DNA of 64,000 nt. It comes from Dysidea avara (lineage: Eukaryota > Porifera > Demospongiae > Dictyoceratida > Dysideidae). The translations under genes were made by a program, and so were the position numbers. This document shows, piece by piece, positions 24,059-58,256 of this stretch (within the stretch, counting starts at the first letter, position 1; each line of letters opens with the position of its first letter). The notes under the pieces are model-generated. The model was not told the origin of the DNA. It searched no databases and worked only from the letters and a program-made list of their open reading frames with translations. The stretch spans positions 8,539,953-8,603,952 of the forward strand of contig NC_089276.1 of NCBI RefSeq assembly GCF_963678975.1. Direction: 5' to 3'.

Positions 24059-24261
24059 ATCACTTCTTTTTGTATTTGTATACTGCAAAGCCGGCCTATG
24101 GCTGGCTTTGGGGCTTTTTTAACCCATTTGTTTTTTTCTTTACCACAGGAAGAACAAAAGAACTTAAAAAAGATTTTTAATACTTCAATTATTTTTGATT
24201 TTATTAGTAATTATACAAATTATATACATATATTTATTACATGCCCATTATTCCCCACAGG

Positions 24262-27200
24262 ATATTATTTTGCAGCTGATCTCTCTACTGGGTGACTTGA
24301 AATGTAGCTGAACTATATACAGGATGGTTTCTGTGTAGCTGAACTCTCTACAGGTGATTTGTTTGCAGCTAAACTCTCTACGTGGTGGTTTCTTTGTAGC
24401 TGAACTCTCTACATGATGGTTTCTTTGTAGCTGAATTCTCTATAAGGTGACTTCGTCTAGCTGAATTCTCTACAGGGTGATTTTTTTGTAGCTGAACTCT
24501 TTACACGGTGATTTCTTTGCAGCTGAACTCTCTACATGATGGTTTCTTTGTAGCTGAACTCTCTACAAGGTGACTTCTTCCAGCTGATCTCTCTACGGGA
24601 TGATTTGTTTCTAGCTGAACTCTCTACAGGTGATTTGTTTGCAGCTAAACTTTCTACATGGTGGTTTCTTTGTAGCTGAACTCCATGGTTTCTTTGTAGC
24701 TGAACTCTCTACAAGGTAACTTCTTCTCTACAGGGTGATTTGTTGTAGTTGAATTCTCTACAAGGTGGTTTGTTTGAGGCTGAACTCTCTACATGGCGGT
24801 TTCTTTGTAACTGAACACTCTACAAGGTAACTTCTTCTAGCTGATCTTTCTACAGGGTGAATTGTTTGTAGCTGAACTATCTACATGATGGTTTCTTTGT
24901 AGCTGAACTCTCTACAGAGTGATTTGTTTGCAGCTGAACTCTCTACATGATGGTTTCTTTGTAACTGAACACTCTACAAGGTAACTTCATCTAGCTGATC
25001 TTTCTACAGGGTGAATTGTTTGTAGCTGAACTATCTACAAGGTAACTTCTTCTAGCTGATCTCTCTACAGGGTGACTTGTTTGTAACTGAACTCTCTACA
25101 TGATGGTTTCTTTGTAGCTGAACTCTCTACAAGGTGACTTCTTCTAGCTGATCCCTCTAAAGGGGGATTTATTTGTAGCTGAACTCTCTACAAGTGATTT
25201 ATTTGCAGCTGAACTCTTTATGTGGTGGTTTCTTTGCAGCTGAACTCTCTACAAGGTGACCTCTTCTAGCTGATCTCTCTACAGGGTGATTTGTTTCTAG
25301 CTGAACTCTCTACAGGTGATTTTTTGCAGCTAAACACTCTACATGGTGGTTTCTTTGTAGCTGAACTCTCTACATGATGGTTTCTTTGTAGCTGAACTCT
25401 TTACAAGGTGACTTCTTCTATCTGAACTCTCTACGGGGTAATTTCTTTGTAGCTGAACTCTCTATATGATGGTTTCTTGGTAGCTGAACTCTCTACAAGG
25501 TAACTTCTTCTAGCTGATCTTTCTACTGGGTGATTTGTTTGCAGCTGAACTCTCTACATGGTGGTTTCTTTGTTGCTGAACTCTCTATATACAAGGTGAA
25601 TTCTTCTACCTGATCTCTCTACAGGGTAATTTGTTTGTAACTGAACTCTGTACAAGGTGCGTTTTTGTGGCTGCAGGTTGATTTGTTTGTAGCTGAACTC
25701 ACTATTGGGTGATTTGCTTGTAGCTGAACTCCTTGCATTGTGTCTAGTTTCTAGCTGATCTCTCTACAGGGTGATTTGTTTATAGCTGATCTCTCTACAA
25801 GTTGATTTGTGTGTAGCTGATCTCTCTGCAGGTTGATTCATTTGTAGCCGATCTCTCTACAGTGTAATTTGTTTGTAGCTGAACTGTCTATAAGGTGATT
25901 TGTTTGTAGCTGATCTCTCTGCAGGTTGATTTGTTTTAGCTGAACTCTCTACAGGGTGATTTACTTGTAGCTGAACTCCTTACATTGTGTCTAGTTTCTA
26001 GCTGATCTCTCTACAGGGTGATTTGTTTGTAGCTGATCTCTCTACAAGTTGATTTGTGTGTAGCTGATCTTTCTACAGGTTGATTTGTTTGTAGCCGATC
26101 TCTCTACAGGGTAATTTATTTGTATATAGCTGAACTCTGTACAAGGTGCTTTTTTGTAGGTGATCTCACTGCAGGTTAATTTGTTTGTAGCTGAGCTCAC
26201 TAAAGGGTGATTTGCTTGTAGCTGAACTCCTTACATTGTGTCTAGTTTCTAGCTGATCTCTCTACAGGGTGATTTGTTTGTAGCTAATCTCTCTACAAGT
26301 TGATTTGAGTGTAACTGATCTCTCTGCAGGTTGATAAATTTGTAGCCAATCTCTCTACAGGGTAATTTGTTTGTAGCTGAACTGTCTATAAGGTGATTTG
26401 TTTGTAGCTGATCTCTCTGCAGGTTGATTTGTTTTAGCTGAACTCTCTACAGGGTGATTTACTTGTAGCTGAACTCCTTACATTGTGTCTAGTTTCCAGC
26501 TGATCTCTCTACAGGTTGATTTGTTTGTAGCCGATCTTTCTACAGGGTAATTTGTTTGTAGCTGAACTCTCTATAAGGTGATTTGTTTGCAGCTGAACTC
26601 TCTACATGGTGGTTTCTTTGTTGCTGAACTCTCTACAGGGTGTTTTGCTTGTAGCTGAACTCTCTACAGGGTGATTTGTTTCTAGCTTATCTCTCTACAA
26701 GTTGATTTGTGTGTAACCGATCTCTCTACAAGCTGATTTGTTTGTAGCTGATCTCTCTGCAGGTTGATTTGCTTCTAGCTGATCTCTCTACAAGTTGATT
26801 TGTTTGTTGCTGATCGCTCTAAAAGTTGATTTGTTTGTAGCTGAACTCTCTGCAAAGTGTTTTGTTCGTAGCTGACCTCTCTTCAGGGTGATTTGTTTCT
26901 AGCTGATCTCTCTACAGGGTGATTTTTTGTAGCTGACCTCTCTTCAGGGTGATTTGTTTCTAGCTGATCTCTCTACAGGGTGATTTTTTGTAGCTGACCT
27001 CTCTTCAGGGTGATTTGTTTCTAGCTGATTGCTCTACAGGTTGATTTGTTTGTAGATGAACTATCTACAGGGTAATTTGCTTGTAGCTGAACTCCTTACA
27101 TTGTGTCTAGTTTGTAGCTGATCTCTCTACAGAGTGATTTGTTTGTAGCTGATCTCTATACAAGTTGATTTGTGTGTAGCTGATCTCTCTGCAGGGTGAT

Positions 27201-28190
27201 TTGTTTGTAGCCGATCTCTCTACAAGGTAATTTGTTTGTAGCTGAACTATCTATAAGGTGATTTGTTTGTAGCTGATCTCTCTGCAGATTGATTTGTTTT
27301 AGCTGAACTCTCTACAGGGTGATTTGTTTCTAGCTTATCTCTCTACAGGTTGATTTGTGTGTAACTGATCTCTCTACAAACTGATTTGTTTGTAGCTGAT
27401 CTCTCTGCAGGTTAATTTGTTTCTAGATGATCTCTCTACAGGTTGATTTGTTTGTTGCTGATTGCTCTAAAGGTTGATTTGTTTGTAGCTGAACTCTCTG
27501 CAAAGTGTTTTGTTTGTAGTTGATCTCTCTACAAGTTGATTTGTGTGTAGCTGATCTCTCTGCAGGTTGATTTGTTTGTAGCCGATCTCTCTACAAGGTA
27601 ATTTGTTTGTAGCTGAACTCTCTATAAGGTGATTTGTTTGTAGCTGATCTCTCTGCAGGTTGATTTGTTTTAGCTGAACTCTCTACAGGGTGATTGCTTG
27701 TAGCTGAACTCCTTACATTGTGTCTAGTTTCTAGCTGGTGTCTCTACAGGGTGATTTTTTGTAGCTGAACTCTCTACAGGGTGATTTGTTTCTAGCTTAT
27801 CTCTCTACAGGTAGATTTGTGTTGATTTGTTCATTGCTGATCGCTCTAAAGGTTGATTTGTTGTAACTGAACACTTTGCAAAGTGTTTTGTTTGTAGTTG
27901 ATCTCTCTACAGGGTAATTTGTTTGTAGCTGAACTCTCTCCACAGTGACTTGTGTGTAGCTGAATTCTGTGTAGCTGAATTCTCTAGAGAGTGACTTAAT
28001 TGTAGCTGAATCTCTACAGGGTGCATGAATTGTTTATAGCTGAACTTTCTTCAGTGTGACTTGTAATGTTTTGAATCTCTGTAGTAATATATTTGCTTAA
28101 CTCTCCACATGGTGACTTGCTTCTTGCTGAACTGTCTATAAGATTAACTGTTTGCAGCTGAACTCCCTACAGAATAACTTTTAATGTAAT
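24262..28190. repeat. minisatellite array A, ~31 bp units, with higher-order repeats
   Basis: The units resemble gtagctgaactctctacagg followed by gtgatttgttt, over nearly 4 kb. The first half mixes aactcttcta and gatttgttt unit types. From about 25.7 kb a longer pattern marked by ccttacattgtgtctagttt recurs at about 25733, 25981, 26230 and 26478, i.e. every ~248 bp or eight units, and again near 27097 and 27711. Open frames inside it are artefacts of the repeat. Confidence 0.92.
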
Positions 28191-28212: not shown

Positions 28213-29064
28213 AAATTAGCCGAATGCTCTATTAGGGTGACTGTTCTATTAGAGTATCTCAATCTCGTATTTGCTACACGGAGTTGGCTTTCGAATCATA
28301 ACTCAGTGGTTTGTAATCCGATTCTTCTGTACTACTGCAAGGACTTTCTATGAAGATTATTCCAGCAATACACCGATTTTCAGCTCATTGCTCTAAGCGG
28401 TTTGCCTAGTAGGCGTGAAAACTAATACTTTTTAAATTCATAAAAATCGATTGCGTAATTGTGACACAGGTTGGGTTTTGTGTCATATCTCCATGGTCTT
28501 TATCTCGATTCCTTTCAAACCACCAAAAGGCACTCCTACGATGGTTACTCCATCTACATAGCAATTTTCAACTCATTCCATGAAGCGGTTTACCCTGTAG
28601 GCGTGACAACATATCGATCTTGTTTTACGCGAATAATCGGTCATAACTCCTGAACCATTCATCGGAGTTGCACTAAATTTGATGCTAGGATTCGCCTTTG
28701 GACTCCCTTTCTGTGTGCCAAATTTCAAGGCGATCGGAGTATGCGTTTGCTTGTTATAGTAATTTTTTTATTTTTTTATTTTTTTTATAGTAATTATTGC
28801 AAGTGTGCGAAAACACGAAGAAAAAAAAACGAAACTTTGGCAGCTTGTATCTCGGAAATGGCTGGAGCGATTTCCTTCAAATTTGGAATGTATATAGACT
28901 CCCCTGGCTGGCGGGCAACTGTGTAGCAAATTTGGTTCCAATCGGATAGGTGATCACCGAGATACAATGGTGTGAAAATGACGTTTTCGTTCTTCCTGTC
29001 AATATACTCACGGTGTGGCGCGCCGACTTCTTGGGCCGCACGACACACTACCGTGTGTCTTGAT
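28213..29064. repeat. copy A right module
   Basis: It begins with a paired ctctattag motif (28226 and 28243) and shares many blocks with the right modules of copies B and C. Shared blocks include gtaagtgtgcgaaaa, cttcctgtcaatatactcac and cttcttgggccgcacgacac. It ends in the short terminal hairpin. It is non-coding and diverged more than B and C are from each other. Confidence 0.75.
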
Positions 29065-33706: not shown

Positions 33707-33884
33707 TTCATTTCTTTTTGTATTTGTATACCATGCACAAATAGACCGGCTTTGGGACTTTTTTAACCTGTCTTTTTTTTCTCTACCACAGGAAGAAGAA
33801 AAGATGAAGCAGATGTACTTTAAATATTTCTGATTTTATCAGTAAATGTACAAATTATATATATAATACATATATTTATTACAG

Positions 33885-35275
33885 AACTCTCCATGGTGGT
33901 TTCTTTGTAACTGATCACTCTACAAGGTGACTTCTTCTTGCTGCCCTCTCTACAGGGTGAATTGTTAGTAGCTGAACAATCTACAAGGTAACTTCTTCTA
34001 GCTGATCTCTCTACAGGGTGATTTGTTTGTAGTTGAACTATCTACAAGGTAATTTCTTCTAGCTGATCTCTCTACAGGGTGATTTGCTTGTAGCTGAATT
34101 CTGTGCAGGTGATTTGTTTGCAGTTGAGCTCTTTACAGAATGGTTTCTTTGTAGCTGAACTCTCTACAAGGTAACTTCTTCTAACTGATCTTTCTACAGG
34201 GCAATTTGTTTGTGGCTGAATTTTCTACAGGGTGATTTCTTTGAAGCTGAACTCTCCACATGGTGGTTTCTTTGTAACTGAACTCTCTACAAGGTAATTT
34301 CTTCTGGCTGATCTCTCTACAGGGTGATTTGTTTGTAGCTGAACTCTTTACAGGTGATTTCGTTGCAGCTGAACTCTCTACATGATGGTTTCTTTGTAGC
34401 TGAACTCTCCACAAGGTAACTTCTTCTATCTGATCTCTCTACAGGGAGATTTGTTTGTAGCTTAACTCTCTACAGGTGATCTGTTTGCAGCTGAACTCTC
34501 TACATGATGGTTCTTTGTAGCTGAACTCTCTACAAGGTAACTTCTTCTAGCTGATCTTTCTACAGGGAGATTTGTTTGTAGCTGAACCCTCTACAAGGAT
34601 ACTTCTTCTAGCTGATCTCTCTACAGGGAGATTTATTTGTAGCTGAACTCTCTACAGGTGATTTGTTTGCAGTTGAACTCTCTACATGATGGTTCTTTGT
34701 AGCTGAACTCTCTACAAGGTAACTTCTTCTAGCTGATCTTTCTACAGGGAGATTTGTTTGCAGTTGAACTCTCTACATGATGGTTCTTTGTAGCTGAACT
34801 CTCTACAAGGTGACTTCTTCTAGCTGATCTTTCTACAGGGAGATTTGTTTGCAGCTGAACTCTCTACATGATGGTTTCTTTGTAACTAAACTCTCTACAA
34901 GGTGATTTCTTCTAGCTGATCTTTCTACAGGGAGATTTGTTTGCAGCTGAATTCTCTACATGATGGTTTCTTTGTAACTGAACTCTCTACAAGGTGACTC
35001 CTTCTAGCTTATCTTTCTACAGGGTGATTTGTTTGTAGCAGAACTCTCTACAAGGAAACTTCTTCTAGCTGATCTCTCTACAGGGAGATTTGTTTGTAGC
35101 TGAACTCTCTACAGGTGTTTTGTTTGCAGCTGAACTCTCTACATGATGGTTTCTTTGCAGCTGAACTCTCTACAAGGTAATTTCTTCTAGCTGATCTTTC
35201 TACAGGGTGAATTGTTTCTAGCTTATCTCTATACAGGTTACTTGTTTCTAGCTGATCTCTTGAATTCTCTTCAGG
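33885..35275. repeat. minisatellite array B
   Basis: About 1.4 kb of alternating unit types, gtagctgaactctctacaag and tagctgatctctctacaggg, giving mostly a ~62-bp dimer. It is shorter than arrays A and C. Confidence 0.92.
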
Positions 35276-36173
35276 ATGACTGCTCTATTAGGATGACTGC
35301 TCTATTAGAGTATCTCGATCTCGCACTTGCTGCTCCAAGTTGGATTTCGTGTTATAACTCCGTGGCTTTAAGTCTGATTCTTCTACACCATTGAAGAGCC
35401 TTTCTAAGATGTTTGCTCCTTCTATACAGCGATTGTCAAAGCATTCCCCCTAGCGGTTTATCTGGTAGGCGTGCCAAGTAGTCGTTTTTTATTAGCTAAT
35501 CTCGATTGCATAATTGTTACACACTGTTGGTTTTTTCGCTGTATCTTCCTGGTTTTTAGCTCGATTTCTTTCAAACCACAAAAGGTTTGAGGTTCAATAG
35601 TTAACCTATTCATCCACCGATTTTTAGCTTCTTCCCATACGCGGTTTACCCTGTAGGCGTGACAACATATTGGTGTTATTTTTCGTGAATAATCGATCAT
35701 AACTCTTTTCCTGTTTATCGAATTCCAGCCAAAGTTGGTACAGAGATGCGCCTTTATACCCCCCTTCTGTGAGCCAAATTTCAGGTAGTCACTAATTTGC
35801 GGACTGGACTGGACCAATACTCCAGCGCACTCCACGGAGTCCAGTCCGCATTTTAGAGGTAGTCACTAATTTGCGGACTGGACTGGACCAGTGGACCAAT
35901 ACTCCAGCGCACTCCATGGAGTCCAGTCCGCATTTTAGAAGCTTGTGACTAATTTGCGGACTAACCACAGCGCGACTGATATATCGCCTTAATACTTGGC
36001 TATTGATTTCTTAATTAACATTTAGGCAGGCTAACCTGTGAAGCTTGTAATTAGAAGTTTTTGTTATTGTTTCTCCTTACATTGCTGGGGAAGGCCGAAA
36101 CACGGAGAAATTACGATGCATGATGCCTAATTTCGTTACTATGGATAGCAGCTGCAGCTATAGCTAGGCGAGA

Positions 36174-39114
36174 ATGTCCTTAACAGCTCATCCTATCATA
36201 CTGAACCAAGCAGAGGAATTAACGTGGGAAGCAGCCTACGACATTCTTACAGCGCAAGATGAAAAATATGTGGAATATAAGATACATGAAAGCAGTTTCC
36301 ATACGTTGAAGGGAGTTCAGTATCTGAATGATGAAGTAAGTGGAGTACAGCTACGTATATCTATCTGGTTATTTGTTTGCTGTTACCTTCATATATGTTT
36401 ATAGATTGTTAATGGATTCTTAAGTGTCCTAGCAGAAACTAGGAACAAAACAAGGAATGACACGTTTGTCATATCGTCCCAACTCACAACAGCCATTATT
36501 GACAGAACAGATCGAGTCCCAAGAAATCTCTTCTGCAAAGTAATAATTTTCATGATCATCATGTGTAATGAAATCTAGTGATTGCAGGTTAAATTTGCCT
36601 CTCAAAGTTTACTTATTGGAATGTACAATCAAGTTGTACACTTCGAGCACTGGATATTTGTGGTAAACAAAGTAGTCATTTGAGACAAGACCTGCGAAAC
36701 AGGGCATATGAGCACACAAAATTTGACAAATTTTTCAAACTTTCATGACTCATAACTTTTTATGCCACTGTGCTACGTATAGTCATGCAAGTTCACAAAT
36801 AATTAAGCATTTAATAGACTACATGATACGTAAACGTTACAGAATACAAATGGTGTGTTTCGGTACTGTCCTGTTGTGTGTATGGGGTGGAGTTTGTGCC
36901 CACATGCATGCCCTGTTTTCACAGATTTATATTATATAAGGATATACATGATTTGTTATGTAGGCAATTGATATACCAAATAAGATGTTTTACTTTCTGG
37001 ATCCTTTGAAACATTCTGATTTAGCAAGTAACGCACTTGCTAGCTTTAGGTGAGAAGTGGTGTTACCATAGCTTATTGTCACCGGCTTTTATTATAAATG
37101 TTTGTGTATGTATAACCTGCAGAGATTATTTTGTTTTGCGCCAAGAAAAGGGAATTGATGATAGCTTGCTCCTTGATGATTACAAGATAATTCAGATCAA
37201 GTCCAGGATACAATATGATGATTATAATTGTGGAGTTCTTTCACTGAAGGTATACATGCTACACATACTGCAAAGAAACAGTGCTTACCTGACGCAGTCA
37301 TGGTATAAGTGATATATATTATTTTGTGGTAAACAAAGCAGGCATCAAAGCCAAGAGCAAGCCACATTCCTGCATGATATTACCCAGGTAATAAGTGAGT
37401 TAAACCCTAAGCGGCGCCTTTGAACGCCCACGCCAAAGTGGTCAGTATAGGCATAACGCATGTAGTAATACATTGATAGGAAGTGAACAAGTAAAGTTCC
37501 TAGTTGCTACTTAATGTATAAATAAACAACATTTATAACTTGATAAAAGTCAAAGCAATGAAAGATTTATATTTAGGTTTGGTCATTTGCAAAGCATGAG
37601 GGCCACAGGCCTTCATGCTTTGGATGTATATATCAGCAAAATCTCTCACAGCCATGGTATAAATTTAATAGTTATACCATGGCCAAGAGGGATTTGCCTG
37701 ATATATATGCCCAAGCCCGAGGGCCCAAGGGCACGGGCATATATATCAGGCAAATCCAGAGTGGCCATGGTATAAGTAATATATACCACTCTGGCATGCT
37801 CACCTAATAGGTGAAGGAAGAAAAACCTGCATTCACCACATTACTTTTATACAGAGGTTTGCAAAAATCGATTGTGGGTTTAAATTGTGGGCACAAAAAA
37901 GAAATGATTGTGGGTTTCACTGGTTGTAGTGATACCATTTTAAACCAAATAATCACTTTGTGGATGAATAAAGTTACCTAAGGTACTAAAATAAACACTT
38001 AGACATATAGGTTGTGAATGTTTGAGGCATCTTTTCGTACAGTTGAAATGTACTCTGTAGAAAAACAATCCACATTGCAAAAATGATTATTTAGTGATGC
38101 TTAGTAACTGAACTATGCAATGCTGACTCACTCATTTCTTTTTACTTCACAACAATGCCCCTGACTAAATCAACATGTTTAATTCAAACCCACAATGCAA
38201 AACTTTAAGCAGCTCTAATTCAAACCCACAATGCAAAACTTTAAGCATCTCTATATAAATAATCAAAGGGAACTGATGCTTTGTAGCTGCCTCAGCATCA
38301 AAGGCAGTTGTGGTCAGGGCTATATCATGATATTGCCCTAACCACAGGGCAATATCTAGATATTGTCCTGTGGTCAGGGAAATATGTGATATATAACCCT
38401 GTGATTTCCTTTGATCTGAGGTGTCAAAGTGGTATATCTATTATTATATACCTGTATTTTCTCTAGTTAGCAGAACAGTTATGCTTTACCAACACAATCA
38501 ATGAATCTTTATTAAAGAAACTGAATTTGAAGGAGACCCGTAGTGAAATTGGAATAGAGTTGCTTCAACAGTCAGGTTAGAATATATTCACTTCATAGTG
38601 TTCCATGTATAGCCAGTTTATGGTGCCCTTGTGGTGTCAAAATGTGACCTGGCCTGCGAAAACAGGGAATGTGGGCACAAACTACACCCTGTCACACAAC
38701 AAGTAATATTGCAGTACTGGAACAGAATATTTTCATTCTGCAACTTGTATCATAAAGCCAATTAAATGCTTACTCTAAGAGCTGAAAATTGCATTGCCAT
38801 AGAATGGTGGCATGAAGAGTGTTGGAAGTTTGAAAACGTAGGCAAAATTCATGTGTCCACATGCCCTATTTTTGCAGGCCCAGTCACAAATACATTTGTT
38901 TTTTTAGTGGATCTTTCTGACCTGTGTGTGATGTGTGGGTCTGCCGATTTGTATGATAATTGGGTAGGTCAAATGTAATATCACATTCTTAATTTGTACA
39001 TGTGTAAACCACTTACAGGTCAAGTGTACACAATGCCAATGCTGGCAACACACTGAATGTGTAAATGAAGTCATATCTGACAACTTCCTCTGTTGTACCT
39101 GCACCCGTCTCTAG
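36174..39114 (+). CDS. Ulp1/SENP-like cysteine protease with C-terminal PHD finger (8 exons)
   Basis: The model is join(36174-36335, 36405-36539, 36588-36662, 36964-37049, 37123-37249, 38467-38575, 38908-38963, 39019-39114): 846 nt, 281 aa, in frame throughout with GT..AG junctions. Residues 100-195 carry the C48 peptidase core: His120-Trp121 (HFEHWIFV), Asp137 (YFLDPL), Gln183 and Cys189 (QYDDYNCGV). Together these form the complete His-Asp-Cys triad plus oxyanion Gln of SUMO-type deconjugating proteases. Residues 238-278 form a PHD-like C4-H-C3 finger (CVMC, CTQC, H-T-E-C, C-C-T-C). The open frame and intact catalytic residues suggest it is, or recently was, functional. It lies wholly inside the TIR element at 35784-39732, so it is probably transposon-borne. 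Deubiquitinase or deneddylase specificity cannot be excluded. Confidence 0.8.
36683..36921. mobile_element. MITE in intron 3 of the protease gene
   Basis: The ends gacctgcgaaacagggca and tgccctgttttcacag are inverted copies. The family is the same as 38644-38889. Confidence 0.6.
37590..37800. repeat. cluster of palindromes in protease intron 5
   Basis: The motifs gatttgcctgatatatatgc and gcatatatatcaggcaaatc, plus ccatggtataa/ttataccatgg, occur in opposite orientations several times. Intron 5 (37250-38466) otherwise shows short repeats such as a duplicated ttcaaacccacaatgcaaaa near 38180-38240, and no gene. Confidence 0.7.
38644..38889. mobile_element. MITE in intron 6 of the protease gene
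   Basis: The left end tgacctggcctgcgaaaaca and the reverse complement of the right end tgactgggcctgcaaaaata are inverted. It ends just before the acceptor of exon 7. Confidence 0.7.
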
Positions 39115-40040
39115 TGGATGCCATGTTATTTGACTTGTGATAGTATATACTCTCCCTTATACATTGTAAGATTGTCGTTTTTCAAGTTAAACAAATAAGG
39201 AAGTGCAGTATTATATTATAATAATTGCATGTATAGTTATATGACAAAAGTACACATAAACAACCAGCTAGCTAAGACTGACATATACGTAGCTAACATG
39301 TTCCATCATAGATATTAGAGCCTACAGGACCATATAGGCTCTAATGTATGTGGTTTCATTCTGAAAAAGTTTCAGAACTTTCTATTACATAGTTGAAAGT
39401 AGCTACCGATGCAGTTGGGATTCTTTAATATCTATGGTTTTTACTTCCCAGATGGGTCTTGATGACTACAGCTAGCCGAAATAACTTGCTATGATGACAG
39501 ACCATGCAATTGATTCATGTATAGCACACAAGACTATAGATGTAGGCATCTCGCTAAAGCATACTCTCGATTAGTAGCCTGAATGGCCGATTCCTATAGC
39601 TGTGTCAGGCGTGTAAACCAGCCGAAAAGTCCTCTGAGCCATCAAGTCATCCTGATGATCAGTCCGCAGGTCCGAATGGACTTGGTCGCCAGTCCAGTCC
39701 GCTGGTCCAGTCCAGTCCGCATTTTAGTGACGGCCAAATTTCAAGGAAATCGGATATAGCGTTCGCGTTTTATAGCAGTTTTTGTAAGTGTGCGAAAAGA
39801 GGAAGAAAAAAAACGAAGAAACTAAGCCAATTGTTAAAGTCGCATATCTCGGGAACGCTTGAAGCGATTTCGCTCTAATTTGGAATGTGGAGTGCTGAAG
39901 GTGGAGGAAGTGTTCACAGCAAAAATCGTCTTGTTTCATCAAGGCAGTACAGAGCTACGGAGGTGCGAAAATTGCGTTTTCTTTCTTCCTGTCAATATAC
40001 TCACGGGTGTTACGCGCCAGCTTCTTGGGCCGCACGACAC

Positions 40041-57405: not shown

Positions 57406-58256
57406 TGACTGCTCTATTAGGATGACTGCTCTATTAGAGTATCTCGATCTCGCACTTGCTACACCAAGTTGGATTTCGTGTTATAACTCCGTGACTTTAA
57501 GTCTGATTCTTCTACACCATTGAAGAGCCTTTCTAAGATAATAACTCCATCTGTACAGCGATTTTCAAAGCATTACCCCAAGTGGTTTATCTGGTAGGCG
57601 TGGCAAGCATAATAATAATAATAATAATAAAAATTAGCTAATCTCGATTGCGTAATTGTTACACACTGTTGATTTTTTCGCTGTATCTTCCTGGTTTTTA
57701 GCTCGATTTCTTTCAAACCACAAAAGGTTTGAGGTTCAATAGTTAACCTATTCACCCACCGATTTTCAGCTTCTTCCCATGCGCGGTTTACCCTGTAGGT
57801 GTGACAACATATTGGTGTTATTTTTCGTGCATAATCGCTCATAACTCTTTGCCTGTTTATGGTATTCCAGCCAAAGTTGGTACCGAGATGCGCCTTTATA
57901 CCCCCCTTCTGTGTGCCAAATTTCAAGGCAATCGGATAACGCGTTCGCGTTTTATAGCAGTTTTTGTAAGTGTGCGAAAAGAGGAAGAAAAATAAGAAGA
58001 AGAAGAAAAAAACGAAGAAACTAAGCCAATTTTTGAAGTCGCATATCTCAGGAATTCCTGAAGCGATTTCGCTCAAATTTGGAATGTGGAGTACTGAAGT
58101 TGGAGGGAATGTACACAGCAAAATTTGTCTTGTTTCATCAAGGCAGCACAGAGCTATGGAGGTGCGAAAATTGCGTTTTCTTTCTTCCTGTCAATATACT
58201 CACGGGGTTGCGCGCCGGCTTCTTGGGCCGCACGACACACTACCGTGTGTCTTGAT
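57406..58256. repeat. copy C right module
   Basis: It begins with the paired ctctattag motif (57412 and 57430) and ends in the short terminal hairpin. An (aat)n tract at 57610-57630 is specific to this copy. It is non-coding. Confidence 0.75.

Follow-up and report, generated by a model that had tools for sequence, protein, structure and literature searches.

Mutator transposons of hydra and lancelet were reported to encode Ulp1 by Bao et al. (2010, PMC2836005), where the legend to Fig. 1e names an alignment comparing the Ulp1 and PHD domains found in Ginger1 and Mutator transposases, plant Mutator-like elements (MULEs) with Ulp1-like genes are cited, the target site duplication (TSD) of Ginger1 is given as 4 bp, and a repair-related role is proposed for such transposon proteases. 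For MULEs, TSDs of 8-11 bp, terminal inverted repeats (TIRs) of 18-50 bp and SWIM fingers are listed by Dupeyron et al. (2019, PMC6446971), with a PHD finger listed for the outgroup Rehavkus; both papers are drawn on here in excerpt. The present work concerns a transposon located in a 64,000-bp stretch of the Dysidea avara genome (contig NC_089276.1, positions 8,539,953 to 8,603,952 of the forward strand), hereafter called the window, whose gene codes for a Ulp1 (C48) protease with a C-terminal PHD finger. The element is very probably a non-autonomous internal-deletion copy of a MULE family, the Ulp1-PHD part being the 3′ end of a long coding region. An earlier note on this DNA had proposed a transposon whose protein joins a Ulp1-type protease to a PHD finger, which is borne out, and had taken the transposon for a small animal element built of these two domains, which it is not, being derived by internal deletion from an 8.2-kb MULE.

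The DNA searches covered the genome to which the window belongs (550.8 Mb, 108 contigs). The long copy L010 (C8; 8,154 bp, with an 8-bp TSD) agrees with the window element up to position 36276 and again from 36274, with flanking identities of 95.5% over 423 bp and 99.1% over 1,397 bp, and contains about 5.1 kb of extra DNA in between, the two matching parts overlapping by the three bases GAA. A second long copy, L011/L034 (C2:39832231-39868637), has 5.3 kb of extra DNA at the same junction; its halves lie about 28 kb of other DNA apart and are assigned to one copy because the TSD TATGGGTT is found at both outer ends, the left one having an additional G. Among the ten matches of the left-end search, the window element alone runs across the junction, and on these grounds a propagated short subfamily was rejected. 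We infer a deletion, as opposed to an insertion, as the direction of change.

The extra DNA of L010 matches the Pfam families WRKY (E = 1e-4), MULE (0.0056), SWIM (0.034) and zf-CXXC (2.2e-12), and the coding order in the long copies is a WRKY-like finger, a MULE-type DDE core, SWIM, a conserved linker, zf-CXXC, Ulp1 and PHD; we infer that all these domains reside in one polypeptide. It is this transposase-coding DNA at the junction, with its identity supported by relatives, that makes the window element a MULE deletion derivative. The absence of a transposase and the single gene noted earlier therefore hold for the window copy but not for the family, and the larger relative suspected in the earlier note exists as L010 and L011/L034, which carry 5.1-5.3 kb with a MULE-type transposase.

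The search of the genome with the transposase exon returned 119 matches, including families with 52-53%, 44% and 40-42% identity. Six transposases, namely that of this family and five relatives, were aligned from six of ten loci, near-duplicates being omitted. PF10551 was found in five of the six (best E = 1.1e-6; 0.0044 for this family's own protein, below the curated cut-off) and PF00872 (Transposase_mut) in two (best 2.3e-9). All six have in common a YDTTF block, the second Asp and a C-x2-H motif, and NQSEG is kept in the three sequences long enough to reach it. The MULE-type DDE domain (PF10551/PF00872), the 8-bp TSD and the TIRs with 29 of 33 bases identical thus conform to a MULE, and the Gypsy-integrase-like transposase that defines Ginger1 is not what the long copies encode. 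The relative L061, a MULE with 52% identity, has the same order from the WRKY-like finger to CXXC (CXXC E = 1.5e-8), and for that reason the long form looks ancestral.

Several observations weigh against this assignment. The MULE (0.0056) and SWIM (0.034) scores of the family's own protein are below the curated cut-offs, so that membership rests on the relatives and the conserved motifs. Neither L010 nor L011 is wholly intact as read: the frame of L010 is broken by a 4-base expansion in exon 1, and in L011 a Ulp1 exon contains an insertion, and one stop, possibly outside the exon, lies in a compared segment. There are also nine extra bases in one compared segment (segment B) of L011.

The inverted ends of the window element at 35784 and 39735 are identical in 29 of 33 bases, giving TIRs of 33 bp, short for a MULE yet inside the 18-50 bp listed in the excerpt of PMC6446971; inverted ends had been noticed earlier, with a length of ~25 bp. 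The flank repeat GCCAAATTTCA, present four times in the window against 0.05 occurrences expected from shuffling, had been taken for an exact 11-bp TSD. However, GCC forms the terminal bases of the element in all eight right ends read, including those of copies without GCC in the left target flank, such as L010, whose target CATAATGG is found on both sides. The 11-bp TSD was consequently rejected in favor of the 8-bp AAATTTCA on either side of the element, and since GCC is part of the element, the latter extends over 35784-39735 (3,952 bp). Exact 8-bp TSDs are present in six of the eight copies: in addition to those of the window element, L010 and L011/L034 there are AATTTTCA in L009, TATTGGAG in L012 and TATTTAGT in L014; six of eight bases match in L013 and none in L015. 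Both empty sites pointed out earlier in the window were found, as the joined flanks of the element align at 57866-57985 with 95.8% identity over 120 bp and at the more diverged 28689-28770 with 81% over 83 bp. The neighborhood also contains arrays of a 31/61-bp repeat (TAGCTGAACTCTCTACA..) in three blocks, at about 24236-27345, 33827-35315 and from 53648 onward. Downstream of every block lies one of three homologous units (28.4, 35.5 and 57.6 kb), and the best empty site comes from the third unit.

The right-end search gave 52 matches, comprising the eight known copies in pieces, the fragment C9:19638799 and matches to an intronic repeat; the counts are lower bounds, the intronic repeat accounting for at least 31 matches at 83-87% plus one at 67%. 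This dispersed repeat is present in the element introns as two copies of opposite orientation (36678-36924 and 38642-38898), those matches at 83-87% lying elsewhere in the genome. Besides the window element and the two long copies, L015 is decayed (stops, indels) and deleted, and L009, L012, L013 and L014 have undergone deletions that left the end regions and, whole or in part, the PHD exons, L014 additionally containing foreign DNA. Ulp1 catalytic exons are present in four of the eight TIR copies, one of them being the partial and damaged L015, so the gene does recur in further TIR copies, which the earlier note had suggested checking.

The gene of the window copy consists of eight exons with GT-AG borders at all seven introns and codes for 281 aa with no internal stops. 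The eight-exon structure proposed earlier thereby holds, both in its splice sites and in its open frame. It was preferred to a nine-exon model because the additional exon, 37358-37387, corresponds to nothing in the protein of Ginger A (see below) and lowers the C48 score from 4.1e-7 to 3.4e-5. The full His-Asp-Gln-Cys set reported earlier is indeed present within the Pfam-matched C48 domain. The best solved relatives of the protease are SENP2 (3.5e-4) and yeast Ulp1 (0.012). The protein is a putative deSUMOylase. The C-terminal PHD finger reported earlier, encoded by exons 7-8, keeps the C4HC3 pattern with all eight zinc ligands, and its Pfam scores (0.13 on the whole window protein and 0.00029 on the isolated finger of L010) are both below the curated cut-off. 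The features are listed in Table 1.

Table 1 Features of the window element and its immediate flanks, in window coordinates
Feature	Position	Strand	Remark
Left TSD AAATTTCA, 8 bp	35776..35783	.	Boundary set by other copies
Left TIR, 33 bp, starts GGTAGTCACTAA	35784..35816	+	
Two tandem subterminal fold-back units, left end	35788..35938	+	
Exon 1	36174..36335	+	MULE gene start (to ~36273) fused in frame with Ulp1 exon
Deletion junction, 3-bp microhomology GAA	36274..36276	.	~5.1 kb of L010 missing here
Exon 2, Ulp1 domain	36405..36539	+	
Exon 3, Ulp1 domain	36588..36662	+	Catalytic His in EHW
Exon 4, Ulp1 domain	36964..37049	+	Catalytic Asp in FLDP
Exon 5, Ulp1 domain	37123..37249	+	Gln and Cys in QYDDYNCG
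Palindrome-rich part of intron 5, ~760 bp	37671..38429	.	Not in L010 or L034; probably a nested insertion
Exon 6, C48 domain end and linker	38467..38575	+	
Exon 7, PHD finger first half	38908..38963	+	
Exon 8, PHD finger second half and stop	39019..39114	+	
Right TIR, ends ..TTTTAGTGACGGCC	39703..39735	-	
Right TSD AAATTTCA	39736..39743	.	

The protein search of the genome with the window Ulp1-PHD protein, in a query that still included the dropped exon 37358-37387, returned 110 matches, among which nine loci outside this MULE family were examined. Seven of them (L018, L019, L022, L027, L030, L044 and L049, with L027 and L044 being one place) adjoin a Gypsy-integrase-like transposase of the Ginger1 type. 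No Ginger1-type integrase match was found in the short flanks of L026 and L029, and the Ulp1 part of L026 shares as much as 97% identity with Ginger A. In the Ginger1 group of L018 the cassette is intronless. In that of L049 it has seven introns placed at the positions of the MULE cassette, and the acceptor that precedes the first exon of the cassette matches as well; the exon borders were set by eye in the one copy read, using the MULE gene as a guide, and the donor of exon 4 was picked among alternatives. The exon lengths (MULE/L049) are 123/123, 135/127, 75/69, 86/87, 127/133, 109/109 and 56/77, equal modulo three in five of the seven pairs, and the other two exons each show a visible frame break in the L049 copy. 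Over five of the eight exons, the MULE cassette is 43% identical to that of Ginger B and 44% to that of Ginger A (69/160 and 70/160 identical positions), compared with 50% (83/166) between the two Gingers, values that do not place the MULE cassette within Ginger1. Ulp1-PHD was not found in the CXXC-bearing MULEs L061 and L062 (the latter with a CXXC 82% identical) within the approximately 3.7 kb past CXXC read in each; the 9 kb read of L060, a MULE with 53% identity, end short of the CXXC exon and are uninformative on this point.

The two long copies show signs of constraint in their transposase exons, as the comparison of four coding segments of L010 and L011 gave 20 synonymous and 12 nonsynonymous differences, with 79% nonsynonymous expected without constraint (p = 5e-7). 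For Ulp1-PHD, 9 synonymous and 4 nonsynonymous differences separate the window copy from L011 and L034, and 3 synonymous and 5 nonsynonymous ones separate it from L010, all counted on the nine-exon model in which 10 of the 258 codons, including one nonsynonymous difference to L011, belong to the dropped exon. Constraint since the deletion is not evident from the comparison with L010, and the 99% identity of the window Ulp1 to L010 in the matched stretch leaves too little change to tell. The selection test suggested in the earlier note thus came out in favor of constraint for the pair of long copies, whereas the window copy compared with L010 gave no such sign.

It might be supposed that the short protease-PHD element functions independently, with an expressed trimmed gene aiding mobility or anti-silencing in trans without a transposase. 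The open 281-aa frame, the preservation of the splice sites, of the catalytic residues and of the cysteines of the PHD finger, and the in-frame deletion are all compatible with this. However, a single copy has the junction, the changes relative to L010 (5 nonsynonymous, 3 synonymous) look neutral, and the high Ulp1 identity to L010 means too little divergence to judge, making such a unit very improbable. Assignment to the KDZ (Kyakuja/Dileera/Zisupton) superfamily in place of MULE would be in line with the 8-bp TSD and with the association of KDZ elements with Ulp1. No KDZ family, for which Pfam presumably has a model, came up at E-values of at most 1 for the L010 DNA or at most 0.05 for the six transposases, whereas MULE and Transposase_mut match the relatives; with no KDZ transposase domain among the matches, this membership was rejected and is considered the least probable of the alternatives weighed here.

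As to the origin of the cassette, the sequences suggest that it was either common to both superfamilies as intron-containing DNA or captured by both from one host gene, and the direction may have been either way. One reading, to which we give slightly less than even odds, is that Ulp1-PHD is a portable cassette which, introns included, was transferred as DNA between the unrelated Ginger1 and MULE superfamilies through exon shuffling and which, placed beside CXXC, would have produced a transposase that combines deSUMOylase activity with the reading of CpG and of histone tails. Capture of Ulp1-PHD from a host gene by this MULE family, and likewise by Ginger1, in the manner in which plant MULEs capture genes, appears rather unlikely to us: the lack of Ulp1-PHD in the stretches read of L061 and L062 means that this family may have gained the cassette, and a common host source would also explain the shared introns, but no host Ulp1-PHD gene was recognized in the partial look taken at nine outside loci of the 110 matches.

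With the window element regarded as a MULE deletion derivative, a deletion of about 5.1 kb at the 3-bp microhomology would have removed everything between exon 1 and the beginning of Ulp1, the frame being kept by chance. The resulting copy would move only if a longer copy supplied a transposase that acts on the ends common to both. Whether or not expressed, its gene would at most yield a small protease-PHD protein. The transposase of the long copies may bind the element ends by its N-terminal finger and cut with the DDE core. In other proteins, CXXC binds unmethylated CpG and PHD binds histone tails; the two domains might accordingly place the transposase on chromatin in which CpG is unmethylated and the histone tails are of particular kinds. 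Ulp1 could remove SUMO from host proteins of silencing or repair, either at the element or where repair takes place.

The window copy taken alone is ordinary, a shortened offspring which demonstrates how an internal deletion can mimic a purpose-built gene. The core combination of Ulp1 and PHD on a Mutator transposon is already in print, since it is covered by Bao et al. (2010, PMC2836005): judged by description only, their hydra and lancelet elements are like the present family in this respect, while CXXC or a WRKY-like finger is unmentioned in the excerpt. Plant MULEs likewise have Ulp1 on Mutator-like elements, in other hosts and with CXXC unmentioned in the same excerpt. Ginger1 with Ulp1 and PHD (Ginger1-9_HM in that excerpt; L018/L048 and L049 here) has a homologous cassette with 43-44% identity over five of the eight exons, but differs from this MULE in its Gypsy-integrase-like transposase and 4-bp TSD. 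The main text of an arthropod MULE survey (2026, PMC13359780) mentions none of PHD, Ulp1, CXXC, SWIM and WRKY, and no report of a CXXC-bearing MULE was found in a limited literature search. The CXXC finger on a MULE and the intron-bearing cassette with introns placed as in Ginger1 are less expected than Ulp1-PHD. Transposases equipped with chromatin readers and a SUMO protease suggest an attack on SUMO-dependent silencing or chromatin-steered integration, and the CXXC-Ulp1-PHD transposase with its Ginger1 counterpart with matching introns offers an example in which the exchange of domains among unrelated transposons can be tested.

CXXC-finger matches number more than 100 genome-wide, many with recurring identity values and frame lengths, which suggests that several repeat families of this genome may carry CXXC fingers. 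Elsewhere in the window there are two long inverted repeats, 48813-49126/50072-50384 and 8115-8538/9308-9718, with arms of 86-165 bp that are 87-93% complementary and look like further TIR elements.

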